A program made the position numbers and the translations under genes. From the NCBI RefSeq assembly GCF_017433805.1, contig NZ_JAFRGN010000007.1:202203-266202 (forward strand): DNA of 64,000 nt. Reading direction: 5' to 3'. A model generated the notes under the pieces. That model was not told the origin of the DNA, did no database searches, and saw only the letters and a program-made list of their open reading frames with translations. This DNA is from Butyrivibrio sp. (GTDB taxonomy: Bacteria > Bacillota > Clostridia > Lachnospirales > Lachnospiraceae). Below, one piece after another: positions 46,223 through 64,000 of this stretch (its first letter is position 1; each line of letters opens with the position of its first letter).

Positions 46223-49200
46223 TTATGGTATAAGTCTACCTTCTCCATCAAATGTATACTTGTGGAAATATCTTGTGATCGTCTCGTTTCTTGCAAGTGT
46301 TCCATCCTTCTTAGCATAGTATGTATAACCATCTACTGTAAACATAGCATCCTTGGCAAGTCTACCGTTCGCCTTACCATAATATTTCTGTCCTTCAAAC
46401 TCAACAATGCCCTTAACAGCCTTGCAGTCATCGCCCATGATGTACTCTGAGTGGTATTTCTCAATCTTTACATTACGTGCAAGCTTACCATCTGCAAGTG
46501 AGATGTAGTAGTCATCACCGATATTGATAAGGCCTGACTTGGAAATCTTACCATCTGCCTTAGCATAGTACTTATCGCCGTTGTAATCGAAGATAGCTGA
46601 TGTTACAAGCGCACCTGTATTATCGAGGTAGTAATCTGAGCCGTAAACAGTAACAATCTCATTCTGAGCAATTCTACCATCTGCAAGAGCTCTGTACTTC
46701 TTGCCATCATAGTTAACCCACTTAGTAACAGCCATTACACCAGTTTCTTCATCAAAGAAACGACGGATTCCGTCTACATAGTGGAAGCCTCTGAGCTTAT
46801 CGCCATTCTCATCAATGAGGTAGTATCTGCCATACTTCTTAACCAATGTAGCTGTTGGCTCTGGAGTAGGCTCATCTGATCCAACTGAAACAAGTTCAAT
46901 TTCTGCTCTGTCACGAACTCTCAGGCACGCTCCGTCAGGATTGTAGTATGAAAGACCAACTGCGCTTACAGTGTTTCCAACTACAGCATCTGCAGCTACT
47001 GTATCATTTCCGTCAGAAGCAAGGATATAACCATCGATGAATACTCTTGCCTCAACGCCTGACTCATCTACAACGTAGAAGTAGTCAACACCTGAAGAGT
47101 TAGTTACAACCTTTGTAACCTTACCTTCAACCTTAAGAAGTGATCCGCCAAGTGCGTTGTAATCAGCAGCCTGCGCAGTTGTTACTTTCTTAGGCTCAAT
47201 AACCTTCTTCTCAGCATCAAGAACCTTGTAGTTGTAAATCTGGATTTCCTTATCGCCCTGATATCCATCTACAAATCCTGTTACTCTTACCTTAGTTCCA
47301 AGTTCGATACCTGTATCAGCGATAGGGAATACTGTTGTACCAGCAGTCTCATCCTGAATATAGATTGTATCAAAGAACTTATTTCCTTCTACTGCTGTTC
47401 CTGCTGTTACATAACCTTCTACTGTGAAAATATCACCAGGCTCACCAGCACGAAGCTCAGCAATTGTGCTAACCTTGATTTCTTTCTTGTTCTGTGAGAG
47501 GTAGTTCAGAAGAATGTTGCGGTTAGAGTAGTACTCCTGTCCGCCGTAATCAAGCTCTGTCTTAACCTCAAAGTTTGAAAGGAATACAGTACCAGCAACA
47601 ATGATCTCTGATCCACTTGAAAGTGTTTCTCTTGCTGCTGCAACTACGCTTCCCTTAGGAACTTCAACATACTGACCGCCAAACTCCTTGCAGTCCTTGG
47701 TGTATGTTGTTGCATGACCATAAACAATAGCTTCTGCCGTACCAGCTGCAACAGCTTTCTCGTCAAGACGAACTGAGCATGCACTGTATGCGCTATATAC
47801 CTGAGTATCTGATACTCCCTTTGTAAGGTAGCAGTCTCTGTTATGCTTATCAAAGTAGAGTCTGTACTCCTGACCGCCATTCTTGTCATTATCAACGATC
47901 TCGTCAGAGTTAAGTCTTGTTGTAGCACCAACAGCTTCAAGAAGCTTATTGATCTCTACTGATGACTGTCCATCCTTGGTATCCTGATAGTCAGCAATAC
48001 CGCAGACAATAAGATTTCCGCCATTAGCCACAAACTCTTTAACCACTTCGATAAATGAATCCTCAAAGTGCTTTACATCGCCATACCTGGTGTTCTTGTT
48101 AGGAGCTGAAACTACGAGAACAGCTGCATCTGCAAGAGTCTCTCTTGTAATCTCATTCTTAACAACATCAACCTTAACATAATCGCCAGCAGCGATATCT
48201 GCAAAGTTTCCAACGTTACCAGCATAGTAACCTGATACATAGTCGTTAAGGTGTGAACCATCTACAACCACGTGTGAAACCATCTCAGGTGCTACGAATA
48301 CAACATCCATAGATGCTGTGTACTTCTTCTCTTTACCGTTAAGATAACCTGTAAGAACTACTTCTACGTACTTCTTACCTACTTCGTTACAAGTGTACTC
48401 AAAAGTATCATCGAACTCACTCTGGCTCTTGATCACAGATGTGTTCTCGTCAAGCTCAAGGCTGCGAACAACTTCACCAGAAACATTGTATGTGATAGAT
48501 GTTACTTCAAAGTCAGATGCTTCGTTGTTGTAGAAGTTAGCCTTAACCGTTAAAGGCTCTCCTGCAACAGGAAGTGCTGTCTCAGTTGTGATTGATCCGA
48601 TACCAACTGCCTCTACATCTGAAAGCCATACAGGAGCTGTAACTGCAATGTTACCATCTGCCTGAGTTACTCTGATGTAGTAGTAGTTATAGTTAGGAGC
48701 AAGTGTAAAGGTTGTCTCAGCTTCTGCCTCTGCAACAGTCTTAGATGCTACAGAAACACCGCCGTTTGCAATAACCTCTACAGTCATTCTGCCTGAATCT
48801 GTAGGATCTGATGTCTTAACCTTGATGTTAACCTCTGAAGGTGTCTCCTCAAGGATAGTACCCATATCTTCACCGTTAAGTGTGTAGTAGATACTAAGGT
48901 CATTATCTTCTGTTGCATATACTCGCATGTTACGGATAGCATCGTAGATGTTCTCACGTGAAAGAGTATCTGCAAGAATTACAGTTCTTCCTGTGTTAGC
49001 ATCTCCCCATCTGCCCTTATGGTTATCCTGGTTGTTTGCAGGAGCTACATGCCAGCCCTTATCAAGTGCTCTTGTGTAATACTCATATGAAGGGAAGTAA
49101 CCTGCGCTTCCGATAGCACCTTCACCGTTACCAACCTCGATAAGAGTGATCTGCTGGTCATTAGCCTTAGTATAGTAAGCAAAGTCATAGAAATCACCGA

Positions 49201-51664
49201 AGGTTGTACCTGGGTGGTTGAACATGCTGATTGAATCAGGTGTGTTAACGAGCTGTGCATAGTAGTTCTGAAGAGCTGTTCTGGACTTACTCTCATAACC
49301 TGTCATGTTACGGCTCATGAATCCGCCTGTATTAAATGTGTTCATATGACCAGGAGCTCCGCCTGACCATGTCATCTCGTATCCGTAAAGAGCTACGAAA
49401 TCATCTGCTGTGTACTTATCAGCAAGCTGATGTCCCTCAACCCACTCTGATGATACAGAACCATCTGTGATAGTTGCCTGTGTATCATTGTCAAAAGAGT
49501 TTGAGTGGTCTGTTACTGCAAGGAAGTCAAGGTTCTCAACTTCGTTAGCAGCGTGATTGAATGCTTCGTCACAAGTACCAGCACCATCTGAGTAGCTTGT
49601 GTGTGAGTGAAGCTGTCCAAAATAAATGTTGTAAGACTCATTAACTCTCTCAGTAAATGTGAAAGTAGCTACTGCACTGTCAGCGTAATTCTCGCAAGTT
49701 GCCTTAGCAAGTACAGTTGCTGGAAGAGTCTCAAGCTTGAATGGTTCCTCATAATCAAGCCATGTCTCGCCATTATCAAGAGAGTAGAATATCTTAGCTC
49801 CCTCTGTTGCTGTTGCAAGAGTAACAACATTGCTCTTTCTGATTGCACCGCCGTTAGGACTAGCCTTAACAGTTGCAACCTGTGCCTGTGTATAAACAAA
49901 TGTCTTCTTAACACTGTCTGAACGGCCTTCGCTTGTAGCATATGCTACTACTGTAGCCTTCTTGACAACATCAAGTGCAGAAGAAGTAACAAACATATCC
50001 TGTGTAAGAACAGGCTTAGATGCATCGCTATACTCTGCGAACTCGCTATCATTGATTGAATATAGAATTGTAGCGCCTTCTGTAGCGCAGCTCATTGTAA
50101 GTTCCTGTCCAAAAGGAGTCTCGCCTTCTTCTGGAAGAATACTTACTGAAGCAGTGATATCAGGAGCTGCTACAGGGCTACCTGTAATCGTGATTGGATT
50201 AAAGCGGTTTACTCCGCCACTTGCTACAGTTTTTCCATTGATTGATGTTGAATCTGCAGGTCCAATCTTGAAGTAGAGCTTATCAACATGCTTAACTGTA
50301 GCTGGAACGCTGAAAGTATACTCTTTCCAGTTAGTAGATACTTCGAACTTATCTCCAATATTTGAGAAATTCTCGCCATCTGTACTGTAAGCTACTGTCC
50401 AGTTCTTGGCACCAGTATTTGAACCCTTCATGGAGAATGTAAGCTTGTAAAGACCATAACCCTTACCAGTTACTGTTACAAGGTAATAATCCCCTGAAGT
50501 CATTCCCTTTGAACCAAGAATGCTTACATTGTTATCTCCGCTCTTATAGGTATAAACAGGAGAAACCTGCTTGCCACTCTGATAAGCTGTTATTTCATGA
50601 TCCTTGTTCTTGCCATCGTTGACTGCAGCACCATCTGCATAAATAACAAGGTCTGATGCAAATGCTGAAACGTCACTTCCTGTAAATGTTGCGATGTTCA
50701 TTGTAACAGTGTCATCTACAACAGGGTCTACAGGCTGTGAAGGCTGTGGAGTTACAGGCTCATCCTTAACAACCTCTACCATCTCATGAGTAGCATCAGA
50801 ATAAAGAACTATCTGAATGCCCTTATAATCGCTGACAGCGGCTGTTACATTAACCTTGGTGCCTTCTTCGAGCTCGCCAAAAGCCTTAGTAACATTATTC
50901 TTGTCATAAACAAGAATTGTTGTATCTCCACTGGCAAGTGTTACCTTGCCCTTTGTAATATCAGCCTTAGATGAAACAGTTACGTTCTTGAGAATAACTC
51001 TCATGCACTCATAGTCATCATGATTAGCTACAAGTGTTGCAATCTCGTCACCATCAAAGGTTGTAAATCCATAGTCTAATGTGTTAGTTTTGTCATTCTC
51101 TACAAGAGTTGCACCAGACAACTCAAGAAGTCCGTTGTAATCCTGGAATGTTCCCTTTGCTGTTACAAGATTGCCAACAGCAAGTCCTGTAATACCATAC
51201 AGGCAAATAGCACCAGTATCATCCTGCACATAAGCGTTCTTGCCACTTACATAGTTAACAACGCCCTTTACAGTAAATTCTCCAGATGCCTTTTCCTTTA
51301 CTTCCTTAATAGAAGTAATTGTTACGGCTGCAGCTGCCACTTCTTCGGTCTCTTTAATCTCAGTAGGCTCAACTGCCTCCTCTTTTACCTCTACTGGAGT
51401 ACCTTCTGTAGCTACATCTGTCTGCTCTATAGCAGGTGCAGCCTCATCCACGGTAACTTCAGCAGAAGCTTCTTCAGATGTAGCCTCGCTACTAGCATCA
51501 AACACAACAACTTCTTCGTCAGATGATGCTTCCAGGCTAGCTTCTGTCACAGCAACTTCAGTTCCCTCTGTAGCAAATGCTACAGTGCTTGTAGACTGAA
51601 ACGCTGTTGTTACTGACACAAATCCAGCAAGGATAAGGGCCAATAAACGCTTTCTGTTCTTCAT
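46223..51664 (-). CDS. Large secreted multidomain surface protein with PHP-type metallohydrolase and cell-wall-binding repeats
   Basis: This 1,813-residue protein starts at 51664, where AGGTGGGAG precedes the ATG. Signal peptide about 1-32, then a Ser/Glu-rich linker. Visible domains in order: a YhcR-type OB-fold (about 135-245), a carbohydrate-binding-like beta domain (about 330-510), a chitobiase-like CHB_HEX segment (about 540-655), and a CehA/McbA-type PHP metallohydrolase (about 680-1040, YFGQLHSHTSYSDG and AVTDHSNS). After these come Ig-like domains, a DUF4350-like Rossmann domain (about 1200-1310) and a second OB-fold (about 1410-1490). About nine choline-binding-like repeats of the form YYAKADGKI close it (about 1605-1813). 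Substrate unknown; phosphoester or nucleic-acid hydrolysis is inferred only. It follows the YibE/F gene by 35 bases. Confidence 0.88.
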   Translation of the reverse strand: MKNRKRLLALILAGFVSVTTAFQSTSTVAFATEGTEVAVTEASLEASSDEEVVVFDASSEATSEEASAEVTVDEAAPAIEQTDVATEGTPVEVKEEAVEPTEIKETEEVAAAAVTITSIKEVKEKASGEFTVKGVVNYVSGKNAYVQDDTGAICLYGITGLAVGNLVTAKGTFQDYNGLLELSGATLVENDKTNTLDYGFTTFDGDEIATLVANHDDYECMRVILKNVTVSSKADITKGKVTLASGDTTILVYDKNNVTKAFGELEEGTKVNVTAAVSDYKGIQIVLYSDATHEMVEVVKDEPVTPQPSQPVDPVVDDTVTMNIATFTGSDVSAFASDLVIYADGAAVNDGKNKDHEITAYQSGKQVSPVYTYKSGDNNVSILGSKGMTSGDYYLVTVTGKGYGLYKLTFSMKGSNTGAKNWTVAYSTDGENFSNIGDKFEVSTNWKEYTFSVPATVKHVDKLYFKIGPADSTSINGKTVASGGVNRFNPITITGSPVAAPDITASVSILPEEGETPFGQELTMSCATEGATILYSINDSEFAEYSDASKPVLTQDMFVTSSALDVVKKATVVAYATSEGRSDSVKKTFVYTQAQVATVKASPNGGAIRKSNVVTLATATEGAKIFYSLDNGETWLDYEEPFKLETLPATVLAKATCENYADSAVATFTFTERVNESYNIYFGQLHSHTSYSDGAGTCDEAFNHAANEVENLDFLAVTDHSNSFDNDTQATITDGSVSSEWVEGHQLADKYTADDFVALYGYEMTWSGGAPGHMNTFNTGGFMSRNMTGYESKSRTALQNYYAQLVNTPDSISMFNHPGTTFGDFYDFAYYTKANDQQITLIEVGNGEGAIGSAGYFPSYEYYTRALDKGWHVAPANNQDNHKGRWGDANTGRTVILADTLSRENIYDAIRNMRVYATEDNDLSIYYTLNGEDMGTILEETPSEVNIKVKTSDPTDSGRMTVEVIANGGVSVASKTVAEAEAETTFTLAPNYNYYYIRVTQADGNIAVTAPVWLSDVEAVGIGSITTETALPVAGEPLTVKANFYNNEASDFEVTSITYNVSGEVVRSLELDENTSVIKSQSEFDDTFEYTCNEVGKKYVEVVLTGYLNGKEKKYTASMDVVFVAPEMVSHVVVDGSHLNDYVSGYYAGNVGNFADIAAGDYVKVDVVKNEITRETLADAAVLVVSAPNKNTRYGDVKHFEDSFIEVVKEFVANGGNLIVCGIADYQDTKDGQSSVEINKLLEAVGATTRLNSDEIVDNDKNGGQEYRLYFDKHNRDCYLTKGVSDTQVYSAYSACSVRLDEKAVAAGTAEAIVYGHATTYTKDCKEFGGQYVEVPKGSVVAAARETLSSGSEIIVAGTVFLSNFEVKTELDYGGQEYYSNRNILLNYLSQNKKEIKVSTIAELRAGEPGDIFTVEGYVTAGTAVEGNKFFDTIYIQDETAGTTVFPIADTGIELGTKVRVTGFVDGYQGDKEIQIYNYKVLDAEKKVIEPKKVTTAQAADYNALGGSLLKVEGKVTKVVTNSSGVDYFYVVDESGVEARVFIDGYILASDGNDTVAADAVVGNTVSAVGLSYYNPDGACLRVRDRAEIELVSVGSDEPTPEPTATLVKKYGRYYLIDENGDKLRGFHYVDGIRRFFDEETGVMAVTKWVNYDGKKYRALADGRIAQNEIVTVYGSDYYLDNTGALVTSAIFDYNGDKYYAKADGKISKSGLINIGDDYYISLADGKLARNVKIEKYHSEYIMGDDCKAVKGIVEFEGQKYYGKANGRLAKDAMFTVDGYTYYAKKDGTLARNETITRYFHKYTFDGEGRLIP

Positions 51665-51699
51665 ACGCTCCCACCTTTCAATACTTTTTCTTCCCTCTC

Positions 51700-52857
51700 T
51701 CAATTTCTTTTCTCTATAGTGGCAGAGAGAATTGCCACTATCGGTACTGTAAGTACTATCCCTATACTGCCTGCCAGCCCCTGAATAACTTCTCTCGCAA
51801 CCATATCAGTGTTGATAAGCTGCGTAAAACCAACGTTGTAATAATAGATAAGAAGGAGAAGTGTAAAGGATGATCCTACAAAAGCAAGGATCAGGGTGTT
51901 GGCCATAGTTCCCATAGCATCACGTCCAATGTTCATCCCTGAACGAAATAGCTCCATGGCCGTCATCTGGTCGTTAACCTCGTGAAGCTCATGTACGGCA
52001 GATGCAATGCTCATTGCAACGTCCATTACTGCTCCCAGAGATGCGATCAGAATACCCGCTGTAAAAAGACCTGAAATTTTCATTCCATGGTCTGTACCGA
52101 TCAACAATAACTCTTCAGCCTCATTAGTCTGAAATCCTGAAATGTGTGAAACATAGCCGGCGAATGCCGCAAAAATACTTGCGATCAAAACTCCCGCAAG
52201 AGTTCCGAGTGCACCACTGATGGTCTTCTTATTGATCCCATCAATCAAAACAAAAGTGAATACCGTAGTATAAAAGACAATTAGAACAGTAGCAGGTATG
52301 GCTGGAAAACCATACTCAAGAAGCGGGAACAATATCCACACTATAGCAAAAAGAGTAAACAACAGAGAAACCAGCGCCATAGCGCCCTTGCCTCTTCCTA
52401 TTAATATAAGAGACAACGCAAACACTCCAAACATCACCAAAAGTATCCCGGTTCTGTCATAGCTATAGATAAAAGCACTATAGCCTTCGCCCTGAGGATC
52501 AAGACGCACAATAACTCTCGTCCCTTCCTGCGCATTTATATTAAACAGTGCGCTCAGGTAATTAGTGGTCTGATACTGTTTGCCCTTAAAGGCTCCAGAT
52601 GACACCTGTACTATAACTTCCTGTGATCCACGAAGGATTCCTTCTGTATTCTCATCTCTCTGGGTATTATCCTGAATAAGCTGCGTTACACGCGCTCTGA
52701 CGAAATGCGATGTGGCACTGGTATCGGACTTCTCTACCAGTCCAAATCTGATCAGACAAACAGACACGACAAAAATTGCCACCAGAATAGTAATGGCCGC
52801 AATACGTTTAAAGTCCCATTTAGGATTAAGAGTCCTTGTCCCCCGAACATTCCCCAT
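51700..52857 (-). CDS. YibE/F-family multispanning membrane protein
   Basis: This 385-residue protein begins with a cytoplasmic segment and one transmembrane helix (about 19-40), then an extracellular part (about 45-120) with INAQEGTRVIVRLDPQGEG. Seven or so membrane helices (about 130-380) follow, containing ASLGAVMDVAMSIASAVHELHEV, the YibE/F signature, and LAGSIGIVLTVPIVAIL. The family may transport small molecules, but no substrate is known. The start has AGGAGCT. It is directly upstream of the surface-protein gene and may be in the same operon. The NRPS cluster's terminator separates it from the genes before it. Confidence 0.9.
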   Translation of the reverse strand: MGNVRGTRTLNPKWDFKRIAAITILVAIFVVSVCLIRFGLVEKSDTSATSHFVRARVTQLIQDNTQRDENTEGILRGSQEVIVQVSSGAFKGKQYQTTNYLSALFNINAQEGTRVIVRLDPQGEGYSAFIYSYDRTGILLVMFGVFALSLILIGRGKGAMALVSLLFTLFAIVWILFPLLEYGFPAIPATVLIVFYTTVFTFVLIDGINKKTISGALGTLAGVLIASIFAAFAGYVSHISGFQTNEAEELLLIGTDHGMKISGLFTAGILIASLGAVMDVAMSIASAVHELHEVNDQMTAMELFRSGMNIGRDAMGTMANTLILAFVGSSFTLLLLIYYYNVGFTQLINTDMVAREVIQGLAGSIGIVLTVPIVAILSATIEKRN

Positions 52858-52900: not shown

Positions 52901-52945
52901 TAAAAAACGCACGCCTGAATTATTATTTTCAAGGGGTGCGTTTAA
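52901..52945 (-). terminator. Terminator closing the NRPS operon
   Basis: On the minus strand AAACGCAC pairs with GTGCGTTT around a 23-base loop, followed by T run TTTTTTA. It lies about 50 bases after the RsbW-like stop and before the YibE/F promoter. Confidence 0.75.
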
Positions 52946-52995: not shown

Positions 52996-53433
52996 TTAAT
53001 ATTTTTTGCTGAAGGACAGAACGTTATGGTTGTCCTCATATTTATAAGTCATAGAAGTCATTGTCTTCTTGACCATAAATATTCCAAGGCCACCAATCTG
53101 CCTCTCACTTGGAGGCTTTGTGACATCAGGATCAGGCTTTTCCAGTGGATTATACTTAAGTCCACCATCAATAAACGTAATCGTAACCTCCTGATTCTCA
53201 TCAGATACGATCACCTCAATCGGCCCTGTTCCCGAATCCGGGATGGAATCTCCGTTTTCATCCAGTTGCCCATAGGCATAGTGGGCCACATTAACGTAGA
53301 TTTCTTCCACAGCCACAATTATCTGGTCATGGACAAGTTCGTCGGTAATGTGTTCACTTATGATATCATCGACAAAACCTGTAACCACGTTTAAATTGTC
53401 CATCGTAGCTTCTAATTTAATATTTTTATCCAT
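52996..53433 (-). CDS. RsbW-like anti-sigma factor/ATP-binding kinase
   Basis: This 145-residue GHKL ATPase of the RsbW/SpoIIAB type has the N-box AVEEIYVNVAHYAY, the G1-like FIDGGLKYNPLEKP and the G2-like QIGGLGIFMVKKTM. Family members phosphorylate a STAS partner and bind a sigma factor or another regulator. It overlaps the STAS gene by one base (TAATG), so the two are made together. No sigma factor of the RsbW-controlled type is present nearby, so the target is unknown. Confidence 0.9.
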   Translation of the reverse strand: MDKNIKLEATMDNLNVVTGFVDDIISEHITDELVHDQIIVAVEEIYVNVAHYAYGQLDENGDSIPDSGTGPIEVIVSDENQEVTITFIDGGLKYNPLEKPDPDVTKPPSERQIGGLGIFMVKKTMTSMTYKYEDNHNVLSFSKKY

Positions 53434-53729
53434 TATTCAATCTTCAAAAAGTCTGAGAAACCTGTAATTTCGAATACTTCCTGAATCTGAGGGCCTGCGT
53501 TTTTGATAACAAGCTCGCCCTGATCATTCATAACCTTCTGAGCATTAAGGATTACCCTTAGGCCTGCAGAGGAAATAAACTTAAGGTCAGTAAAATCAAG
53601 TACCATCTTCTTGGTGCCACTAAAGGATTCTTTAAGTGCTGCATCAAGATTAGGTGCTGTTGTAGTATCCAGCTTACCCTCAAGAGCAATAATAACTTCA
53701 TCACCGTTTTGAGTCTTGTTGATTGTCAT
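53433..53729 (-). CDS. STAS-domain anti-sigma factor antagonist
   Basis: This 98-residue STAS protein (SpoIIAA/RsbV type) has GKLDTTTAPNLDAAL and the phosphorylation-site motif DLKFISSAGLRVILN, whose serine is the likely target of the RsbW-like kinase. The ATG at 53729 follows GGAGGAG; an earlier in-frame ATG is too close to the ribosome site. It follows the third hydrolase by 35 bases and overlaps the kinase gene by one base. Confidence 0.92.
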   Translation of the reverse strand: MTINKTQNGDEVIIALEGKLDTTTAPNLDAALKESFSGTKKMVLDFTDLKFISSAGLRVILNAQKVMNDQGELVIKNAGPQIQEVFEITGFSDFLKIE

Positions 53730-53764
53730 GGTTATCTCCTCCATGTTCTTTTTAATGGTTATTT

Positions 53765-54580
53765 TTATAGTAGCACATTAACGAGTTTCTGTGCAAAAAT
53801 ATCCGGATTATCCATAATAAACATATGGTTACCCTCAAATTCTTCAGATCTAAATTTATTGGCTGTGTTTTCCCTATACCAGTTAACCAGCTTAGGAGAA
53901 AATATAGACCCCGGATTAGCATAGAAATATACCAAAGGAACATTCATCTTTTTGACAACAGCTCTGTTATCCTGCGCATCCAGTGATTTGATAAGGCTTC
54001 TAAGTACGGTCTCATCACAATCATCAAGTCTCATTTTGATCAGTCTGTCCAGAACAGGCTTGGGAACCTCAATAAGCTCAGGCATTGACTTAAGGGAGAA
54101 GTCCTTGTAAATAGTATAGAAATCATACTTCTCGTAATCATCTGCTTCTTTTATTAATGAATCTTCTATCTTACTGCCAAGCTTCCACTCCGCGTCATTT
54201 AGCTGCTTGGGAGACATATCACAGATAATGGTCTGCTTGATCTTGCCGCAGCCATACATATCAATGTACTTAAGAGCTACAGCGCCGCCCATGGACCACC
54301 CAAAGAGGTTGATATCCTTAAGTCCAAGGGTAGTGATCAGTTCATTAAGGTCTGAAGCCAGAGTCTCTATTCCAACCTGTTCCTTGTTGGCATCCTTACT
54401 CTCTCCATGTCCGCGAAGGTCATAGATGATAAATCTTGCCTTTTCCTTCATAAGCTCAACCGGTCTTGAATAGATCTCGTGAGAGCTTGCCCATCCATGC
54501 ACCATTACAACAGTTTTCCTGCCACTTCCTATATCCTGGTAAAAAAGCTGTTCTCCGTCCTTTAATGTTAACCAGCTCAT
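53765..54580 (-). CDS. Alpha/beta hydrolase
   Basis: This 271-residue hydrolase has the oxyanion-hole HGWASSHEIY, the nucleophile elbow LFGWSMGGAV (Ser) and a C-terminal His in GNHMFIMDN. It is a standard lipase/esterase-type fold with no signal peptide. The start codon immediately follows the stop of the upstream hydrolase (TAA ATG). Its role in the cluster is unknown; it may hydrolyse a thioester, an ester or an off-loaded product. Confidence 0.88.
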   Translation of the reverse strand: MSWLTLKDGEQLFYQDIGSGRKTVVMVHGWASSHEIYSRPVELMKEKARFIIYDLRGHGESKDANKEQVGIETLASDLNELITTLGLKDINLFGWSMGGAVALKYIDMYGCGKIKQTIICDMSPKQLNDAEWKLGSKIEDSLIKEADDYEKYDFYTIYKDFSLKSMPELIEVPKPVLDRLIKMRLDDCDETVLRSLIKSLDAQDNRAVVKKMNVPLVYFYANPGSIFSPKLVNWYRENTANKFRSEEFEGNHMFIMDNPDIFAQKLVNVLL

Positions 54581-55471
54581 TTAGTCCTCCTGGAAGAATT
54601 TAGTCACGTCATCAAGAACTTCAATACTTTCCGGCAAAAAGCTCTTCTGTGCAGGAAATGCATGTGTCAGTTCCTTGTTCCCTCTATAGAACATGACTTT
54701 GCATTTATTTCCCGCTCTCTTAAGAGCATCAGCAAAAGACAAAGTGTATTTGCCAAGAAAATCCACATCACTGGATGTCAGATGCATCGGCGGGAGAATA
54801 TTTATTATCTCCGGATTTTCCGGGTTCATGAGCTTCATGAATTCCTTGTCCTTGCGCATTTCCTTGAATATCTGCTGCGGATAAAGTACCCCAATGAGAT
54901 CTAGCTTATCTGTGTAGTACATTCCGCTAAAACATGCCATTTTCCTTATATTAAGTGTAGAAGTTCTGCAGTTTATCTTTTCCCACAGAGCCTGAGATCT
55001 GTGTATAGCCACAGTGTAGATTGACAAATAAGCTCCAGCGCTCTCTGCCACTACATTTACCCTGTCCCTGTCGCCATTATAATCCTGCAGATGCTTGTCT
55101 ACATATCTAAAACCTGCTGCCACATCTGCGATTTCCTGCATGAGTGTTGCGTCATCCATCAGACGATATGAAATAGCAAATACCAGAAATCCCCTGATAG
55201 CCAGTAGCTGACACAGGTTATACTCGATGGTCTGATTGCCTGTGTACAACCCTCCGCCATGTACCATGATGATAACTGGGAGTTTTGCACCAGACTCAGC
55301 ATACTTTTTACCTCTGTAGACATCCACCTTAAGAGGATTTCCATCATCTCCACGGTATTCCAGATTAAGTTCCGCTGAAATATCATCCCTTATAACCGGA
55401 GTAATTGACTCCAGTATCGGGTCTGCTTTCCTCTGAACAAGCTTGGAAAAGTAGTACATAAAGCTGTTCAT
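54581..55471 (-). CDS. Alpha/beta hydrolase, BD-FAE/HSL type
   Basis: This 296-residue hydrolase has the HGGGLYTGNQ oxyanion motif, the nucleophile elbow VVAESAGAYLSIY (Ser with AESAG) and the His in LTHAFPAQ. It aligns along its whole length with the N-terminal half of the neighbouring 805-residue protein (e.g. GMYYTDKLDLIGVLYPQQI against GMFYTNRDDILGALLSEQF), so the two genes are paralogues. No signal peptide is seen. It lies 3 bases after the fusion gene. Confidence 0.88.
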   Translation of the reverse strand: MNSFMYYFSKLVQRKADPILESITPVIRDDISAELNLEYRGDDGNPLKVDVYRGKKYAESGAKLPVIIMVHGGGLYTGNQTIEYNLCQLLAIRGFLVFAISYRLMDDATLMQEIADVAAGFRYVDKHLQDYNGDRDRVNVVAESAGAYLSIYTVAIHRSQALWEKINCRTSTLNIRKMACFSGMYYTDKLDLIGVLYPQQIFKEMRKDKEFMKLMNPENPEIINILPPMHLTSSDVDFLGKYTLSFADALKRAGNKCKVMFYRGNKELTHAFPAQKSFLPESIEVLDDVTKFFQED

Positions 55472-55474
55472 AGC

Positions 55475-57892
55475 TTAATCCTCATAGTAATAGTCAGTCT
55501 TGGAAGGCTCAAACAGAACTGCAAGCATTGCCATAAGCTGCTTCTTGGACTCTTCTTCTGGGTTCACATCCGCAGCTGCAGGCTTAGCGTTCTTTTTCTG
55601 ACCAGCCTGTCCAATGATATTCATGACAATAATTCCAATCTTCTGCAGAATTTTATTCATGTCATGGACATTTCCATTAATATCTTTCCATATTAATGGG
55701 TTGTTAACTGCAGGAGCAGCCATTGGTCTTACCATAGGCACCATGCGAGGCGCCTGCATCTGCTTAACTGGCCCAATACTGAACAAATCCTTATCTGACT
55801 TCGTTCTTCTGCCAACTGCCTTCATCAGATAGTTATTCAGGACTACTATCTGAGGGTGGGCTCCATGCTTAGCAAAGAAAGCCTGAAGTGCTGCCATTTT
55901 CTCTTTTTCCATCTTCTCTGTGAAAAGATATACCACATCAAGGCTGGATGCATTCATCTTATGTCCCTTGGCATAATTTACGATTCTCTCGATATCGATT
56001 CTCCTCAGGAACAGGTAGTTAACGTGATTTCTGCACACATTCTTGAAGAACTTCTTGTTATAGCCTGCCATATGAGTGATAACAAGCTGATTTCCAAGGA
56101 AAAATGTAAGCTGAAGCTGATTGATCATGGCTGCACGCGCATACAGATCACAGGACAATGCAGTGATCGCTGTCCTTCCATCCTTGGCGTAGAGTGAGCC
56201 AAGCTCATAGATACTCTTGTTTATCTGATCATCAGAAAGCTCCACTACTTTATACTTATCCTCAGTGTCATTAACTTCATGGAAAATGACAGTAGGTTCA
56301 TCAGTGTTATCAGAAGTAACGATTGGTGTCGCCTCATATTTCTGGATAAGCTCTGACATGAAGCTTATTCCCTGAACCTTCTTAAGGAGCTTGACGTTAT
56401 TCTTCATCAGATTGAGATTAGCTTCAGCAATCTCTTTCTCCTCGAGCTTGGATTCCAGAACTATAATATTTCTAAGACCAAGCTTGTCCTTGTTATCCAC
56501 AAGATACTTAGCATAGCTTGGAGGAGTCGCATAATCTGTGAGGATCACGTCTGTGATCTTCTCATTCTGTATCAAGGTAGCAAGCTGCTCAGGATAGCCC
56601 AGAATCTGATATGGGCAAAGAGATACTACCGCGCCTGTCATATTAAGTGCGTAGAAGCTGTAGATTGCCTCCGTTGTCATAGCACCCGGAATCGCAACAC
56701 GGGCTTTATTCTTGCCTGTAAGACCTATAGCAGAAAATACTTCTGCATAGTTATCCCATTTTCTGAACATCTGACGGTAGCTGACCGCCTTGTCGTTACT
56801 CTTAAGGGCAGGTGCATCAAGTCTGTCATCTCCAAAGGAATTGACTGTTCTGATAGCCTTATGGAGCTTGATCTTACCAAGCTTTCCTGTCTCCATCTGC
56901 TTTTTAAGAGCCTTGAAATCCTTTTCCTGCTGAACAGAGTTAAGCTGTCTTTCTGCATAGATAGCAGCCTCTTTTTCAAAGAATTCCAGCATTTTATTGT
57001 TGGCATCGATACTCTGCTCAAGGTCGGGATGTGCAAAGTTAAAGGTATGCATCAGGTAATCTTCGCTGTAATAGAGCATCTTGGAAGTCTTGCCCGCACG
57101 CTTTAATGCTTTGTTAAAAGAAATAGTGTACTGGTTAAGGAAATCGCCCCTACTTGTAACAAGGAAGGTAGGCGGAAGGTTATTAACAATTTCAGGGTGC
57201 TCAGGGTTCATGTACTGGATGAAATTAGGATCATCCTTCCTGTCACCGTAGAACTGCTCAGATAAAAGAGCTCCCAAAATATCGTCCCTGTTGGTATAGA
57301 ACATACCACAGGAAATACCAAGAGCCTTGAATACCATACGGCTTGGCTCATGGCCGATAACCTTCTGAAGCTTAACTGAATTCTTCATGGCAGCTGTATA
57401 GATAGCAAGGAATGCTCCTGCACTATCGGCTGTCAGGAATATTCTGGAGTAATCAACATCGTATTCAACCAGCTTTTTACCCACAAGATCCAGTCCGGCG
57501 CAGACATCATCAAGCTGCTCGCAGACATTGGCTCTAGGCGCAAGCCTGTACTCTATAGCGAATACAAGATAGCCCCTTGAAGCCAATTCTCTTGACAGAT
57601 TAAGGGAAATCTTACGATCTCCGGTAATAAGTCCGCCGCCGTGAATAGCAACGATTACAGGAAGTTCTCTGCCTTCATACTCTTTGCCTGAAGGTTCAAA
57701 AATATCCATGGCAAGAGGGATTCCTTCACGGTTAATATACGGATTGTTCCTAAGTTCCCTGACATTCTTGGGAACCTCTTCCTCTGATGGTTGCGCAACA
57801 CTACCTGTGTTTAATCCCTGGAGCACCTCGAGTCCGATACGGATAGCTCCGCGCCTAATTTTTCCGGCCATAGCAGCATTTTTATCAGCCAT
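55475..57892 (-). CDS. Fusion of alpha/beta hydrolase and degenerate adenylation-like domain
   Basis: This 805-residue protein starts at an ATG after AGGAGGAA. Residues about 60-340 form an alpha/beta hydrolase (HGGGLITGDRK, LTADSAGAFLAIY, and a His near MHTFNFAHP). Residues about 365-720 resemble the N-terminal half of an acyl/amino-acid adenylating enzyme: APALKSNDKAVSYRQMFRKW, then YSFYALNMTGAVVSLCPYQIL. The ATP loop that should read YTSGTTG is replaced by VIFHEVNDTEDKYK, no YGxTE motif is visible and the C-terminal small domain is missing, so adenylation is unlikely. A Met/Pro-rich tail follows. It overlaps the NRPS gene as ATGA if read from the upstream ATG at 57919. The split role of the adenylation-like part is unknown. 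Confidence 0.8.
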   Translation of the reverse strand: MADKNAAMAGKIRRGAIRIGLEVLQGLNTGSVAQPSEEEVPKNVRELRNNPYINREGIPLAMDIFEPSGKEYEGRELPVIVAIHGGGLITGDRKISLNLSRELASRGYLVFAIEYRLAPRANVCEQLDDVCAGLDLVGKKLVEYDVDYSRIFLTADSAGAFLAIYTAAMKNSVKLQKVIGHEPSRMVFKALGISCGMFYTNRDDILGALLSEQFYGDRKDDPNFIQYMNPEHPEIVNNLPPTFLVTSRGDFLNQYTISFNKALKRAGKTSKMLYYSEDYLMHTFNFAHPDLEQSIDANNKMLEFFEKEAAIYAERQLNSVQQEKDFKALKKQMETGKLGKIKLHKAIRTVNSFGDDRLDAPALKSNDKAVSYRQMFRKWDNYAEVFSAIGLTGKNKARVAIPGAMTTEAIYSFYALNMTGAVVSLCPYQILGYPEQLATLIQNEKITDVILTDYATPPSYAKYLVDNKDKLGLRNIIVLESKLEEKEIAEANLNLMKNNVKLLKKVQGISFMSELIQKYEATPIVTSDNTDEPTVIFHEVNDTEDKYKVVELSDDQINKSIYELGSLYAKDGRTAITALSCDLYARAAMINQLQLTFFLGNQLVITHMAGYNKKFFKNVCRNHVNYLFLRRIDIERIVNYAKGHKMNASSLDVVYLFTEKMEKEKMAALQAFFAKHGAHPQIVVLNNYLMKAVGRRTKSDKDLFSIGPVKQMQAPRMVPMVRPMAAPAVNNPLIWKDINGNVHDMNKILQKIGIIVMNIIGQAGQKKNAKPAAADVNPEEESKKQLMAMLAVLFEPSKTDYYYED

Positions 57893-57915
57893 GATGAATT
57901 CCTCCTTTCCGGATA

Positions 57916-60900
57916 TCATTTAAGTTTTCCTAGTCCTCTTTCATTCATTACATCTACAAAGATCTTGTCATAAGTAGGTATCATGCCAGGATCGTTATGT
58001 AAACTAAAGTGATCTCTGTCAGGGAATTCAATAACCCTGAAATCTGCAGAGTTCTGCTTTGCAAGGGCTACTCTGATCTCAATCTCCTCCTGGGTATTAT
58101 TCTGCATTGCAAGAAGGAGTATTGTAAGACCTTCATAGCACTCAAAGCTCTTAGGTCCAGCATTGAGGAAACTAAGCATACTGTACGCAAATAGCATGTT
58201 CTCCTCAGGAATATTGTTCTCTTCAAACTTCTGAACAAGGAACTCATCCAGATCTTCATGCTTATAAGTCTTAGCGAAGCTCTCGCCCTGTGAAGGAACC
58301 ATGTCAGAGTCGCCAAGGAATACAGTAGGTGCACTTCCTCTGATTCTTCTGGTCTTGGAGGCCAGACTGTGTCCAAGCTCTCCACCAAAGGAATATCCGA
58401 TAAATCCGAATATGCCGTCGTCCTTAGGAATAGACAGCTCCAGAAGAGTCATAACAGAGTTGGATACCTCATCGAAGTTCTCACCTGGATACAACTCGTT
58501 GTAGTTGTAGTTAATATCTTCAACTACGATTACGTTAAATCTCCTGCACCAGTCATCCACAAAGTGCTGAATACTCATCTGAAGAACGATTCCCAGAGTA
58601 ATTACCATTGTAGGCTTTTCTGGAACATACTCATTGTAGTACTCGAAAACTCTCATTCCCTTGCGCTCAAGCTTTCTGACAAAGGATGTGCCCAGCATAT
58701 CTGTAAGAGCAAAGTTATCCTTGGTTATATCTGCAAGATAGGACATTACCTTGGTGGACAAAAGATATCCTGTAAGTCCTGTGCAAGCACTGATAACTGG
58801 ATGGCACGCTATTACAAGGAAGCTTTCATCGCCCTTTCCTGTGATGCAGAATACGTTAAAGAGCTGCTCTGTAAGAGTATTAACCTTCTTATCCAGAAGC
58901 TCTGTATGAAGCTTCATAGCCTCTTTTTCCGGATCTGTCTTACCAGCATCTATGAAGGTTGCAGTGAGCCTTCGGCTTGTAAATACGAGCCTGTCTGCTT
59001 CCACGTTCTCATGAGCAAAGGCAGTATTAACAACTGTAAATCTGCTGTTTACCTTATCAAGAGTCTTCTGAAGGTCTTCTTTACCAATCTTGGTGCCAAC
59101 CTTGAATACTCCTGCGTAGTTGTACTTACTAATGTCGCTGCCTTCAAGTATCTGAGTAAGATCATCTGCTTCAGCCTGTGACAGAGGTCTTATACTCTCA
59201 ATTGCTTCTCCTGCAGAAGTTACCTCATTCATTACGTAGTCAAACTCTTTCTGTGACCACTCCTTCTCCTGATAATCTTCAGCAGTGTAGATAGTTTCTT
59301 TCTGAGCATTCAGGAAAAGAACTTCATCCTGCAGCTGAGTTAAGATATTCTCTGCAATACTCTCTATCTTGTTCTTACTGTAAATAGCCTCATTGTAAGT
59401 AATATCGATTCCGAAGTTACCGCCAGTAACCACGCAGTTAATGTTAATATCAGAGCCAAAGCCATTTTCGCCGAGGTTACTATCTGCAAATTCTGGAAGC
59501 TCAAGTACTCCCTGAACTGGCTCGAAGTATCCGCCTGACCTGTCGGCATCATCCATTTCACCCAGATAGTTAAAGCTGATCTTGGCAATATGATCTGCTG
59601 AGTATGTAACCTTATTATCTCCATCTATGAAGCGGAGAATGTTGTAGCCAACACCCTTAACAGGAACTCTGTGAAGAGTTTCCTTGGTAAGTACCAGGTC
59701 AGCTTTAAGGTCATCTCCCTTACCACCTGTGATTCCGCTCAGTACAACTGGGTAGATAGAAGTAAACCATCCAACTGTTCTGTCAGTAGCAAGCATTTCA
59801 GAGATATCCTCTCGTCCATGGCCCTCAAGCTGAATAGAAACGTCAGATACTTTTTCTTCCTGACAATAAGCTCTTGCAACTGCTGTGATGAGAACATCGT
59901 TCATATCAAGATGGATCACATCTCTCTTAGCACCCAGAAGGGCCATTGTATTGCTCTTGTCCATCTTAAAGCTTACAGAGCCAAAGGTTCTGTTATAATC
60001 CTTGGCATCTGAATATGGCATTGAAGAAAGCTTCTCTTGAACCTTATTCCAATATGGAATCTCTGATGCAAGAACGTCACTGTTTCTATAAGTCTTAAGA
60101 GCATTTACATAATCTCTGTAAGTACTTGTCTTGGAATCAAGAGTAATCTCTTTATCCCTGAGTGTAAGCTTATAAGCCTTCTCAAGATCCTGAACAATGA
60201 TTCTCCAGGATACACCATCGATGATAAGGTGATGCGCTGCAATAAAGATCATATCCTGATCATTACCATGAATAAGTGCTACTCTTACAAGAGCCTTCTC
60301 CATGTTGATACCATTCTTTACATCACTGCAGATCCTTGCCACATCACTATCTGACTTGGCTGTGTATTCCTCGAGTGGCACGTCACTACTTACGCCATTT
60401 ACAAGGAGTTTACCATCTCTATAAACTGCCCTTAACAGGTCATGCTGATAGAAAATAGCCTTAAGTGACTCTTTTAACTTATCTATTTCTGCACGCTTCT
60501 TCATACCAAGCAGAATCTGCTGTGTGAAGTGTGCGCCCTGTGGAAGATCAAGGTCCTTATAGAAGGCTACGATCGCACTGTCTTCAATCTCTCCCTCTAT
60601 TGGATTCTGATCTATGTCGATGAGGAACATTTCTTTCTCAACCTTGGCAGCAATATCACGTGCGGTCTGCAGGCTGAGGATATCGCCAATCCTGAGCTGT
60701 ATTCCCTTGTTATGAAGGATACTTACAAGTCTGATTCCTTTGATGGAATCCCCGCCAAGTGCCTGGAAGCCTGCTGTTACGCTAACCTTATCAGTCATTC
60801 CAAGAGCTTCCTGCATAGCATCAGCTACTATCTCTTCATACTTGGTCTCTGGCTCAACATAAGCGTCTTCGTTCATTATCTCTGGCATAGGAAGAGCCTT

Positions 60901-63900
60901 ACGGTCAACCTTGCCATTGACTGTCATAGGAATAGCATCAAGTGCTACAAATATGGATGGAACCATGTAATCAGCAAGCTTCTTGGCCATATACTTGCGC
61001 AGATCTTCACTTACCTTATCTGCTTCAAGGCTTGCCTTCATAGCTTCCTTGAGTGTGAAGTACAGGATCAGCTGATTCTTTCTGACATCAGCTACTGCCT
61101 GCTCTACAGCGTAGTGATCATCAGCAATCTTCTCAATTTCACCAAACTCTACTCTGAAGCCGCGAAGCTTAACCTGATTATCTATTCTGCCCACATACTC
61201 AAGCTGATCGTCAGCATTGTATCTTACAAGGTCACCAGTCTTATATGCTCTAAGCTTGTTTCCAGCAACTGTTATCTCTACGAAACGGTCGCGGGTAAGT
61301 TCATCCTGATTCCAGTAACCCTCTGCAATCTGAGGTCCTGCCAGGTAAAGCTCACCTACCATCTGCTGAGGAAGGAGCTTGCCATAAGGATCACATACAA
61401 GGCTCAAAGTTCCCGGAACAGCTCTACCGATAGGAATATCTTCCTCATCTCCGTTTACTACATAGTAGGAAGAACATACTGTAAACTCAGTTGGTCCATA
61501 GCCGTTTATTACCTTGAAGGATGTAGCAGCAGAAGGAAGAAGCTTCTCGCCACCCATCATCAGGTAATCGAGGTCAAGATCCTGATCATACTTCATAAGT
61601 TCCATACCAATAAGTGTGGATACAGTAAGACCAGCAATCTTGTGCTCTGCTATATACTCATCCATCTCAGGAATATTCCTACGGAGGTCTTCACTGAAGA
61701 TGTGAAGTGTTGCACCAACCGCAAGTGGACAAACAAGGTCATCAAGTGATCCATCAAATGCAAAGCTGTTAAAGTGTCCATAGCTCTTTTCCGCACTTAT
61801 CTCAAGCGCCTTGGTTCTCCAGCTTGCAAAATGTCCAAGTGATCTGTGGCTCTGAACAACGCCCTTAGGTCTTCCAGTAGAACCTGAGGTATAGATCATG
61901 TAAGCATAGTTATTAAGAGTAGGAAGATTTATCTTCTCCTTACCATTTCTTGCAACTGCTTCGTCAATGATCTCCTGAGTCACAACAACCCTGGCTCCTG
62001 AATCCTCCAGCATATATCTGATTCTCTCTGGTGGATACTCAGGATCAACAGGAACATAAGCTGCTCTTGCCTTCATGATACCAAGCGCTGCTATTACAAG
62101 CTCTTTGCAGCGGTCCATCTTAACTGCAACAAAGCTGTTCTCTTTGACCTTCTGTGAAATAAGGTAACGTGCAAGGGCATCCGATCTCTCATTAAGCTCC
62201 TTGTAGGTCAAACTTCCCTTATTATCAATAACTGCCACATGCTCAGGATATTTTTCTGCCGATGCTACAAACATATCAATCCATGTAGCCTTATTCTCGG
62301 CTGCCTTTTCTCCCTTAGACAGCTCAAACAGAGCCTTTTCTGTCTTCTTATCAACAGTCTGAACAGCTGAAAGCTGCTCTTCTTTTGCAAGAGACTGTGA
62401 AGTCTGTGCGATGGCTTCTGCGAAGATCTTCATATCTTCCTCAGAATATCTGTTTCCGTCATATTCGATAGCGATATTGTAATCATCGCCCTCTGGATAT
62501 ACAGTTACAGCAATCGCAAACTTAGTAGTATCTGTTGAAAGAGCTATCTGCTCTATTCCATCAATCTGTCCACCTTCGAACAATCCGCCCTGGAAGATGT
62601 ACATGATCTGCGCATGCTCGCCAAGGTCTGTAGCGATCTTTGTATATGGATACAGCTCGTTGGCTGTTGTTGCACGCATCTGCTCATTCATATCCCTTAC
62701 AAAGGAAAGTGTATCTGCAGGAGAAGCGCTTCTGTCTACCAGAACAGGAAGTGTTCTTGCGAACATACCTACGCTGTTCATAAGTCTTGTATCAGCAGAA
62801 CGTCCGCTACTGATAGTTACATAGAAGGACTTATCCTGTCTTGTTACTCTCTTTAAGGTCTCTGAGAATGCAGCCTGCATGAAGCTTGCAGCAGTAACCT
62901 TATTCTTCTTGCAGTACTTATCTATTGTCTTGGCACTAGTCTTAGTGTTGATTATTCCGTAGGCCTTTCCATCAGGCTTAACAGAATCCATGTAGGAAGC
63001 TGCCTCTGCGCCGCTAAGAAGCTTATCAAAGTATGTCTTGGCGTCATTGTAGGCCTGTCCCTTTATGTAATCCTGTTCAAAGAGTGCATACTCACAGCCT
63101 GAAACAGTCTCTTTTTCCAGAGTCTGTCCATTATAGGCTGCCATAATATCGCGCATGAGAACTCCAGCGGAAATTCCATCGTAGATAATGTGATGGATAT
63201 CCATAAAGAGCCATGTCTTCTTAGGTCCGGCAATTACTCCGATTCTGTAGAGTCTGTCACCAATAAGGATAAATGGCTGAACTCTCTTCTGGAATTCTTC
63301 AACTGGTGGCTCTTCCGGTGAAGCGTTAAAGAGAATCTGAGGTTCCTCATCTCTTCGCTTCTGCATCAGCTCACCATCCTCGAATACAATCCTTGTACTA
63401 AGATATGGATGGGCATCAATTGCCTTAGCAACAGCACCTGCAAGGCGCTTAGCATCAACACCTTCAAATACGTACAGGTTAGGCACATTGTACTGAAGAG
63501 TTGATCTGTTAAGCTCCCACTCTACGTAGATACCGCGCTGGTTCTCAGAGATAGGATAATATTCCTGCTCCTCATAATCAGGGATGCCGAGGGCCTTCTT
63601 ATCAGCGCCGCCATCAAGCATAGTTGCCACATCGCGGATTGTAGGAGTCTTTAATATATCTGCTACAGTAATCTTCCTGCCGAGCTCTTTATTTATCGCT
63701 GCAGCAAATCTCATGGAAACGATAGAACTCATTCCTGCTCCCAGAAGATCATCTGTAACACCAAAGTTCGAGCTTCCGATAGCCTTGTAAGCAAGGTCAA
63801 GGAGCTGCTTTTCAAGCTCTGTTTCTGGCTCAACCTTCATGAAGCCTTCAATCTCAGGCTCAGGCATAGCTTTTCTGTTAACCTTGCCATTAGGTGTAAG

Positions 63901-64000
63901 AGGCATGTCATCCATCAGTACGTAGACTGTAGGAATCATGTAGTCTGTAAGTTCTTTAGCCAGGAACTTACCAAGCTCCTTGGTATCTACCTTCTTACCA
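57916..64000 (-). CDS. Nonribosomal peptide synthetase, 5' end outside window
   Basis: The reading frame is open to the window edge, so at least 2,028 residues are visible of a longer protein. Visible order: end of an A domain (LTPNGKVNRKAM), PCP (about 63840-63590; GAGMSS carries the Ser), C domain (HHIIYDG at about 63180-63197), and A domain (about 62290-60870; YTSGSTGRPKG, GYGPTEFTV, YKTGDLVRY). Then PCP (LGGDSIKG, about 60750), epimerisation domain (HHLIIDGVSW and EGHGRED), a truncated C-like segment (about 59200-58600; the HHxxxDG site reads CHPVISA), and a thioesterase (GYSFGGEL, His in DRDHFSLH). One D-residue and hydrolytic or cyclising release are predicted. It leads a hydrolase/regulator operon. 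Confidence 0.95.
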   Translation of the reverse strand, partial: GKKVDTKELGKFLAKELTDYMIPTVYVLMDDMPLTPNGKVNRKAMPEPEIEGFMKVEPETELEKQLLDLAYKAIGSSNFGVTDDLLGAGMSSIVSMRFAAAINKELGRKITVADILKTPTIRDVATMLDGGADKKALGIPDYEEQEYYPISENQRGIYVEWELNRSTLQYNVPNLYVFEGVDAKRLAGAVAKAIDAHPYLSTRIVFEDGELMQKRRDEEPQILFNASPEEPPVEEFQKRVQPFILIGDRLYRIGVIAGPKKTWLFMDIHHIIYDGISAGVLMRDIMAAYNGQTLEKETVSGCEYALFEQDYIKGQAYNDAKTYFDKLLSGAEAASYMDSVKPDGKAYGIINTKTSAKTIDKYCKKNKVTAASFMQAAFSETLKRVTRQDKSFYVTISSGRSADTRLMNSVGMFARTLPVLVDRSASPADTLSFVRDMNEQMRATTANELYPYTKIATDLGEHAQIMYIFQGGLFEGGQIDGIEQIALSTDTTKFAIAVTVYPEGDDYNIAIEYDGNRYSEEDMKIFAEAIAQTSQSLAKEEQLSAVQTVDKKTEKALFELSKGEKAAENKATWIDMFVASAEKYPEHVAVIDNKGSLTYKELNERSDALARYLISQKVKENSFVAVKMDRCKELVIAALGIMKARAAYVPVDPEYPPERIRYMLEDSGARVVVTQEIIDEAVARNGKEKINLPTLNNYAYMIYTSGSTGRPKGVVQSHRSLGHFASWRTKALEISAEKSYGHFNSFAFDGSLDDLVCPLAVGATLHIFSEDLRRNIPEMDEYIAEHKIAGLTVSTLIGMELMKYDQDLDLDYLMMGGEKLLPSAATSFKVINGYGPTEFTVCSSYYVVNGDEEDIPIGRAVPGTLSLVCDPYGKLLPQQMVGELYLAGPQIAEGYWNQDELTRDRFVEITVAGNKLRAYKTGDLVRYNADDQLEYVGRIDNQVKLRGFRVEFGEIEKIADDHYAVEQAVADVRKNQLILYFTLKEAMKASLEADKVSEDLRKYMAKKLADYMVPSIFVALDAIPMTVNGKVDRKALPMPEIMNEDAYVEPETKYEEIVADAMQEALGMTDKVSVTAGFQALGGDSIKGIRLVSILHNKGIQLRIGDILSLQTARDIAAKVEKEMFLIDIDQNPIEGEIEDSAIVAFYKDLDLPQGAHFTQQILLGMKKRAEIDKLKESLKAIFYQHDLLRAVYRDGKLLVNGVSSDVPLEEYTAKSDSDVARICSDVKNGINMEKALVRVALIHGNDQDMIFIAAHHLIIDGVSWRIIVQDLEKAYKLTLRDKEITLDSKTSTYRDYVNALKTYRNSDVLASEIPYWNKVQEKLSSMPYSDAKDYNRTFGSVSFKMDKSNTMALLGAKRDVIHLDMNDVLITAVARAYCQEEKVSDVSIQLEGHGREDISEMLATDRTVGWFTSIYPVVLSGITGGKGDDLKADLVLTKETLHRVPVKGVGYNILRFIDGDNKVTYSADHIAKISFNYLGEMDDADRSGGYFEPVQGVLELPEFADSNLGENGFGSDININCVVTGGNFGIDITYNEAIYSKNKIESIAENILTQLQDEVLFLNAQKETIYTAEDYQEKEWSQKEFDYVMNEVTSAGEAIESIRPLSQAEADDLTQILEGSDISKYNYAGVFKVGTKIGKEDLQKTLDKVNSRFTVVNTAFAHENVEADRLVFTSRRLTATFIDAGKTDPEKEAMKLHTELLDKKVNTLTEQLFNVFCITGKGDESFLVIACHPVISACTGLTGYLLSTKVMSYLADITKDNFALTDMLGTSFVRKLERKGMRVFEYYNEYVPEKPTMVITLGIVLQMSIQHFVDDWCRRFNVIVVEDINYNYNELYPGENFDEVSNSVMTLLELSIPKDDGIFGFIGYSFGGELGHSLASKTRRIRGSAPTVFLGDSDMVPSQGESFAKTYKHEDLDEFLVQKFEENNIPEENMLFAYSMLSFLNAGPKSFECYEGLTILLLAMQNNTQEEIEIRVALAKQNSADFRVIEFPDRDHFSLHNDPGMIPTYDKIFVDVMNERGLGKLK

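Follow-up and report, generated by a model that had tools for sequence, protein, structure and literature searches.

The 64,000-nucleotide stretch of Butyrivibrio sp. DNA analysed here (the window) lies at the right-hand end of a contig, C57, in a genome of 3.4 Mb in 74 contigs, and it ends in a minus-strand operon that couples a non-ribosomal peptide synthetase (NRPS) to hydrolases and a STAS/RsbW pair. With middling confidence we read this operon as the 3′-terminal part of an NRPS cluster of 12 genes for a probable lipopeptide, the export of which a partner switch without a sigma factor probably controls. Partner switches are textbook sigma regulators, the usual output of a STAS/RsbW pair being a SigB/F/G-type sigma factor. 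The genes of this cluster suggest another output: it seems to be a MATE exporter, reached through a fused RsbW-like domain, and not gene expression. More tentatively, we propose a new output class, in which the RsbW/SpoIIAB fold, fused to MATE exporters in gut and rumen Clostridia and with its ATP-lid motif lost, would act as a docking gate. A STAS protein, phosphorylated by a separate kinase and dephosphorylated by a phosphatase in the membrane, would bind this gate and, without any sigma factor, open or close the export of non-ribosomal peptides (elsewhere, of other products).

The window holds the 3′ part of the cluster, cut by the end of contig C57; the upstream part lies on contig C3, where a second NRPS frame of 3088 amino acids (aa) begins at the first bases. 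In Butyrivibrio proteoclasticus B316, the genome of which comprises a chromosome of 3,554,804 bp among four replicons (main text of PMC2914790), a single 5853-aa NRPS spans both pieces. The C3 piece aligns to its residues 1–3079 (90.9%) and the C57 piece to residues 3827–5853 (98.6%), leaving an assembly gap of about 747 NRPS residues, as judged against this relative. The syntenic cluster is whole in B316 and its gene order is identical in both genomes: 12 genes and four divergent genes. The first half encodes a STAS-APH protein, an acyl ligase, a MATE-HATPase, a small Pro-rich protein, a 919-aa ligase and a beta-lactamase-like protein; the second half encodes the five-module NRPS, a hydrolase/adenylation fusion, two hydrolases, the STAS protein and the RsbW-like kinase, followed by YibE/F. 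The divergent genes encode a SpoIIE phosphatase, another MATE-HATPase, a 287-aa LPG_synthase_C protein and a formyltransferase. Beyond the window, the switch parts thus comprise the STAS-APH and MATE-HATPase genes on the same strand and the divergent pair of MATE-HATPase and SpoIIE. In the main text of the B316 genome paper (PMC2914790), the terms nonribosomal, non-ribosomal, anti-sigma, MATE and sigma factor have no whole-word occurrence.

The switch proteins of the window are both free. The STAS protein (53433–53744, minus strand, 103 aa) is RsbV/SpoIIAA-like, matching PF01740 at 64.7 bits (cut-off 22.6). As a STAS-only protein it falls among the anti-sigma factor antagonists of TIGR00377, at 80.7 bits against a cut-off of 53.45, and it stays below the SpoIIAA equivalog TIGR02886 (53.1 against 114.75). 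Its phosphorylatable serine sits in the motif ISSAGLR and is kept in six of seven aligned STAS domains, the seventh being of the SulP type. The free HATPase (52996–53433, minus strand, 145 aa) matches PF13581 at 61 bits (cut-off 27.4) and has the N box, DxG and GGxG motifs of the RsbW/SpoIIAB type. RsbW and SpoIIAB (anti-sigma F factor) are the closest solved structures, and no NCBIfam model matched at E ≤ 0.001. It is predicted to be the kinase of the STAS protein. The SpoIIE-type PP2C domain encoded beside the cluster on C3 (PF07228, 165.1 bits against 25) makes its protein the candidate phosphatase for phospho-STAS.

An RsbW-like HATPase domain forms the C-terminal part of each of the cluster's two MATE proteins. 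The cluster exporter has a MatE domain and a MATE fold; in the structural comparison of our own MATE-HATPase the listed matches cover almost only the MATE part (residues 4–453), the last ~120 residues lying outside. By hhalign (98.8%) the fused domains share homology with the free kinases, and the fusion is widespread. A family search with ten fused domains matched 94 of 299 genomes (about one per genus), with fusion-sized frames of 560–660 aa in about 40 genera among the matches listed. When one locus each was examined in 40 genera, our own profiles confirmed the MATE-HATPase fusion in 39 further genera; in the one left out, L225, the MATE is plain, and SpoIIE and HATPase are fused in another gene. 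Within the genus, our fused domain matches 42 of 79 genomes at E ≤ 0.001, a count that takes in weak matches as well as some short HATPases that may be free.

The fused and the other HATPases differ most in the ATP-lid motif GGxG, which is found in none of 67 MATE-fused domains and in all 20 other HATPases (12 free, six SpoIIE-fused and two STAS-APH-fused). The N-box pattern is present in 61 of the 67 against 20 of 20, and the pattern DxG..(F/Y/W)(D/N/H)P in 30 of the 67 against 19 of 20; the 67 were drawn from 69 domains, two of at most 90 residues having been dropped. The free or phosphatase-fused HATPases are most naturally read as kinases, and the exporter-fused ones as receivers.

The fusion is also associated with switch genes. 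One or more of the three kinds (STAS, SpoIIE, free HATPase) lie within 6 kb of it at 18 of 39 loci, and two or more at 12 of 39, in genera that are not fully independent and with several loci stopping at contig ends; within 3 kb, at least one is found at 16 of 39. None of 12 plain MATEs had a switch gene within 6 kb (one-sided Fisher p 0.002 against 18/39). Eight of these came from eight of the same genomes and four from loci included on other grounds (two in L070, one in L072 and one at the edge of L105), and the MATEs of L110 and L111 (575 and 589 aa) were excluded for their other C-terminal domain. Across 31 unrelated loci (555 kb) there were no STAS genes, one SpoIIE gene and no free HATPase.

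The switch also recurs beside NRPS genes. An NRPS lies within 6 kb of the fusion at seven of the 39 loci (L189, L209, L214, L215, L216, L217 and L227), and L225 has one beside its MATE and SpoIIE-HATPase fusion. In four other genera (L209, L215, L225 and L227) only 31–92 bases separate a free STAS gene from an NRPS gene. Within the genus, an NRPS near the fusion was also found in the genomes G311 and G323, where a STAS gene comes just after the NRPS gene (the two have this order in the window too), and twice in G317; in G352 (L172) the NRPS is followed by STAS and SpoIIE. One of the G317 loci (contig C17, L166) carries the window's part list around a different NRPS: NRPS, STAS, MATE-HATPase, HD-CE, STAS-APH, free HATPase and SpoIIE. 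Two NRPS-linked fusions, used as the query against named genomes, gave 23 loci, 22 of them with the fusion (L260 holds a plain MATE); 21 of the 22 adjoin an NRPS gene and 13 have a STAS gene. These loci are titled Lachnospiraceae, Ruminococcus sp., Clostridia or Clostridiales, with one uncultured bacterium, so that the combination of NRPS, MATE-HATPase and STAS recurs in Lachnospiraceae and Ruminococcus. Since the query was chosen for adjoining an NRPS and ten loci (L238–L247) are 78–100% identical to its first sequence, the scan speaks for conservation and not for enrichment; L247 and L216, and likewise L258 and L214, are probably the same loci. The most compact form, in Ruminococcus (L253 and L256), has NRPS, MATE-HATPase and STAS genes followed by a SpoIIE-HATPase fusion in divergent orientation and by another STAS gene.

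From this anatomy we infer a series of steps. The free kinase would phosphorylate the STAS protein, and the SpoIIE phosphatase would dephosphorylate it on a cue. By analogy with SpoIIAB, unphosphorylated STAS would dock on the MATE-fused HATPase-like domain, which is devoid of the GGxG lid motif; docking would open or close export, and perhaps couple synthesis to export.

Several observations weigh against this proposal. Of the cluster's MATE-fused domains, the first retains both DxG and the N box, so that it may bind ATP. The second, divergent one falls below the Pfam cut-off (21.4 against 27.4 bits); it matches a profile of the fused domains at 63 bits and has neither the Asn of the N box nor the Gly of DxG. 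Close relatives are among the domains counted for GGxG. The SpoIIE gene of the window's cluster is divergent and outside the operon, and 21 of the 39 fusion loci, several of them on short contigs, have no switch gene within 6 kb. Taken alone, adjacency to an NRPS is not enriched: seven of 39 against two of 14 mixed controls, both of which carry another C-terminal domain, and none of eight fetched controls. Although the sole orthologous NRPS found keeps the STAS/RsbW pair, non-orthologous NRPS clusters of the genus (L098 with L237, L110 and L111) have no switch in the stretches read; on relatives with an NRPS and no such pair, which the sequence-only reading had named as counting against it, the outcome is mixed. 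A structural model of a STAS-APH-HATPase fusion (mean predicted local distance difference test score, pLDDT, 55.8) was too poor to show a contact between STAS and HATPase and was left unused.

The chief alternative, which we consider unlikely, is a classical transcriptional switch, in which the kinase would hold a sigma factor outside SigB/F/G (for example one of ~258 aa) or another regulator, STAS would release it, the cluster would be a target and the MATE-HATPase would only titrate STAS. The score of the STAS protein as an anti-sigma factor antagonist (TIGR00377) and the kinase's closeness to RsbW and SpoIIAB among solved structures fit such a switch. TIGR02980 (SigB/F/G), on the other hand, was over its cut-off in none of the 79 genus genomes, our own included, and in one of 14 control genomes; STAS relatives are present in 70 of the same 79. 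No cognate sigma factor of a canonical SigB/SigF partner switch thus passes the cut-off in these genomes; the output that textbooks give such a switch is absent, though another sigma factor could still be a target. Below the cut-off, the best matches are frames of several hundred aa, mostly ~550, which we read as RpoD-like, and of ~258 aa; among the matches listed, the ~258-aa sigma-like frame occurs in our own genome and many others. The Pfam scan showed no sigma factor among the cluster proteins scanned, and a transcriptional switch leaves the fusion of the RsbW fold to exporters in 39 further genera unexplained.

Somewhat less probable again is a reversed flow of information, with the MATE-fused domain as sensor or kinase: transport activity or substrate load would alter STAS phosphorylation, and STAS would tune the synthetase or the ligases. 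The survival of the N-box pattern in 61 of 67 fused domains and of the DxG pattern in 30 is in keeping with this, as are three NRPS clusters (L209, L215 and L227) with STAS and MATE-HATPase and no other HATPase in the stretch read. Against it stand the absence of the lid motif from 67 of 67 fused domains and the presence of a free or SpoIIE-fused HATPase in our own cluster and in L166, L253 and L256. That the STAS and RsbW genes are mere neighbours, co-transcribed with the NRPS and acting elsewhere in the cell, is improbable: the genome does have further STAS and HATPase genes, STAS also occurs at loci without an NRPS, and NRPS clusters without STAS/RsbW exist, but records of Lachnospiraceae and Ruminococcus repeatedly show STAS together with NRPS and MATE-HATPase, in varying gene order, and the order is conserved in B. 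proteoclasticus.

Returning to the window, the sequence-only reading had called its genes correctly, with every feature present and all on the minus strand. The spacings from the NRPS downstream (−4, +3, 0, +20 and −1 bases) bear out the tight packing it described, and 138 bases then separate the kinase from YibE/F. Its placement of the STAS/RsbW pair inside a biosynthetic operon also holds, the place being kept in B. proteoclasticus B316 and STAS adjoining NRPS genes elsewhere. It had further tied the switch to the product or its making through a stress or envelope response; the pair does belong to the operon, but the stress or envelope tie is unsupported as stated. The intrinsic terminator it had put after the kinase (52902–52943, minus strand) is judged real from inspecting the fold, in which a stem rich in GC is followed by a T6 tail, though a consensus terminator scan did not report it and the kinase–YibE/F gap folded whole is no better than shuffles (z −0.63), both of which speak against it. 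Downstream of the terminator lies a gene for a 1826-aa secreted-looking protein (46223–51703), the open frame of which overlaps YibE/F by 4 bases.

The NRPS part in the window (57916–63999, minus strand, 2027 codons, 5′ open at the contig end) runs from the end of an A (adenylation) domain through PCP (carrier), C (condensation), A, PCP and E (epimerization) domains. The A-PCP-E order proposed earlier is therefore present, but the protein continues past E into a degenerate stretch and a weakly thioesterase-like end with GYSFG, the thioesterase match reaching 19.8 bits (cut-off 26.4). Pfam matches to C, A and PCP domains, together with catalytic motifs, identify the protein as an NRPS, and the closest solved structure is linear gramicidin synthase subunit A. 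The N-terminal C domain of the synthetase carries HHxxxDG, and it is because of this domain and the acyl ligases that a lipopeptide is suggested; five modules, a terminal E domain and upstream acyl ligases make it the probable product.

Next comes the 814-aa fusion (55475–57919, minus strand) of a BD-FAE/HSL-type hydrolase to a degenerate AMP-binding half. The hydrolase/adenylation fusion predicted from the sequence is there, but the TSGTTG-type ATP loop, present in the cluster's 919-aa ligase, was not found in its adenylation half, which for that reason is probably not an active ligase. It is followed by a 296-aa BD-FAE/Abhydrolase_3 hydrolase with ESAG (54581–55471) and a 271-aa alpha/beta hydrolase with GWSMG (53765–54580), both on the minus strand. 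A family search in the 299 genomes found the 814-aa fusion at full length only in our own genome, among the matches listed; the ten best other matches with their surroundings are stand-alone esterases, beside which no NRPS, STAS or SpoIIE was seen. A single-protein scan for relatives through the 919-aa ligase confirmed none.

Other arrangements of these parts were seen. MATE-HATPase-HD-CE triple fusions of 889–899 aa occur at L154:9541–12231, L159:15479–18148 and L167:8707–11406, and a free HD-CE gene adjoins the MATE-HATPase in L166, L195 and L200. Natural STAS-APH-HATPase fusions lie at L188:5427–7016 (529 aa) and L201:16225–17805 (526 aa); both loci also carry MATE-HATPase, SpoIIE and STAS genes. 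Some MATEs adjoining an NRPS have a different C-terminal domain (L110:16972–18699, L111:11829–13598 and L210:2330–4036); this domain of ~120–140 residues has no Pfam match and is unlike the HATPase by hhalign. Another partner switch, of SpoIIE, HATPase and STAS genes, adjoins a pair of ABC exporters, of which one carries a C39 peptidase domain, on our own contig C64 (L004:5547–15555), in B. proteoclasticus (L185) and in L180, with no sigma gene seen adjoining. A 207-aa family with no Pfam match adjoins STAS genes (L004:10423–11046, with relatives in several of L173–L187 and in L222) and occurs singly or repeated in ~400-aa proteins; hhalign (probability 0.9%) does not show it to be a HATPase. 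At L183:9158–16729 and L184:9222–16755, genes for STAS, a 1077-aa protein, STAS-APH, HATPase and SpoIIE stand in one row; the 1077-aa protein is GH5 plus GT2 by Pfam in L183, placing a switch beside a polysaccharide-type enzyme.

ClbM is a MATE exporter encoded with the NRPS genes of the colibactin cluster. Our exporters resemble it (PDB 4z3n) in standing beside NRPS genes, and differ in that the title of the entry does not mention an RsbW-like domain. With the RsbV/RsbW and SpoIIAA/SpoIIAB systems of Bacillus, the loci share a free STAS protein with the phospho-Ser motif, a kinase with ATP motifs and a SpoIIE-type phosphatase, and they differ in having no SigB/F/G protein over cut-off in 79 genomes and a kinase fold fused to exporters. 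In SiaABCD of Pseudomonas aeruginosa, according to excerpts of PMC7647112 and PMC8457831, the PP2C phosphatase SiaA and the kinase SiaB balance the phosphorylation of the STAS-like SiaC, which binds and activates the diguanylate cyclase SiaD. It is a partner switch with a non-sigma output, as proposed here, but that output is a diguanylate cyclase, whereas our candidate is a MATE exporter to which an RsbW-like domain is fused. On the SiaA equivalog model NF038263 the cluster's SpoIIE protein scores 92.7 bits, far under the cut-off of 700. SypA/SypE of Vibrio fischeri also places a STAS protein under the control of a serine kinase, by a mechanism described as as-yet unknown (PMC4517449, in excerpt), but what it controls is the formation of biofilm that depends on a polysaccharide locus, and an exporter fusion is unmentioned in the excerpts of PMC4517449 and PMC10120452. 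SulP/SLC26 proteins, in the excerpt of PMC8256260, are secondary transporters fused to a partner-switch domain; there STAS itself is fused, whereas here it is the STAS-binding (RsbW-like) fold. Literature titles and abstract openings gave no MATE-HATPase fusion and no STAS/RsbW pair in an NRPS cluster, which is weak evidence that they are undescribed, as most subscription journals lay outside the coverage.

If the proposed gating is true, a phospho-switch known from sigma regulation gates transport directly. MATE-HATPase together with STAS would then be a genomic marker for NRPS clusters of rumen and gut Clostridia, and testable candidates are available in B. proteoclasticus, the genome of which is complete.
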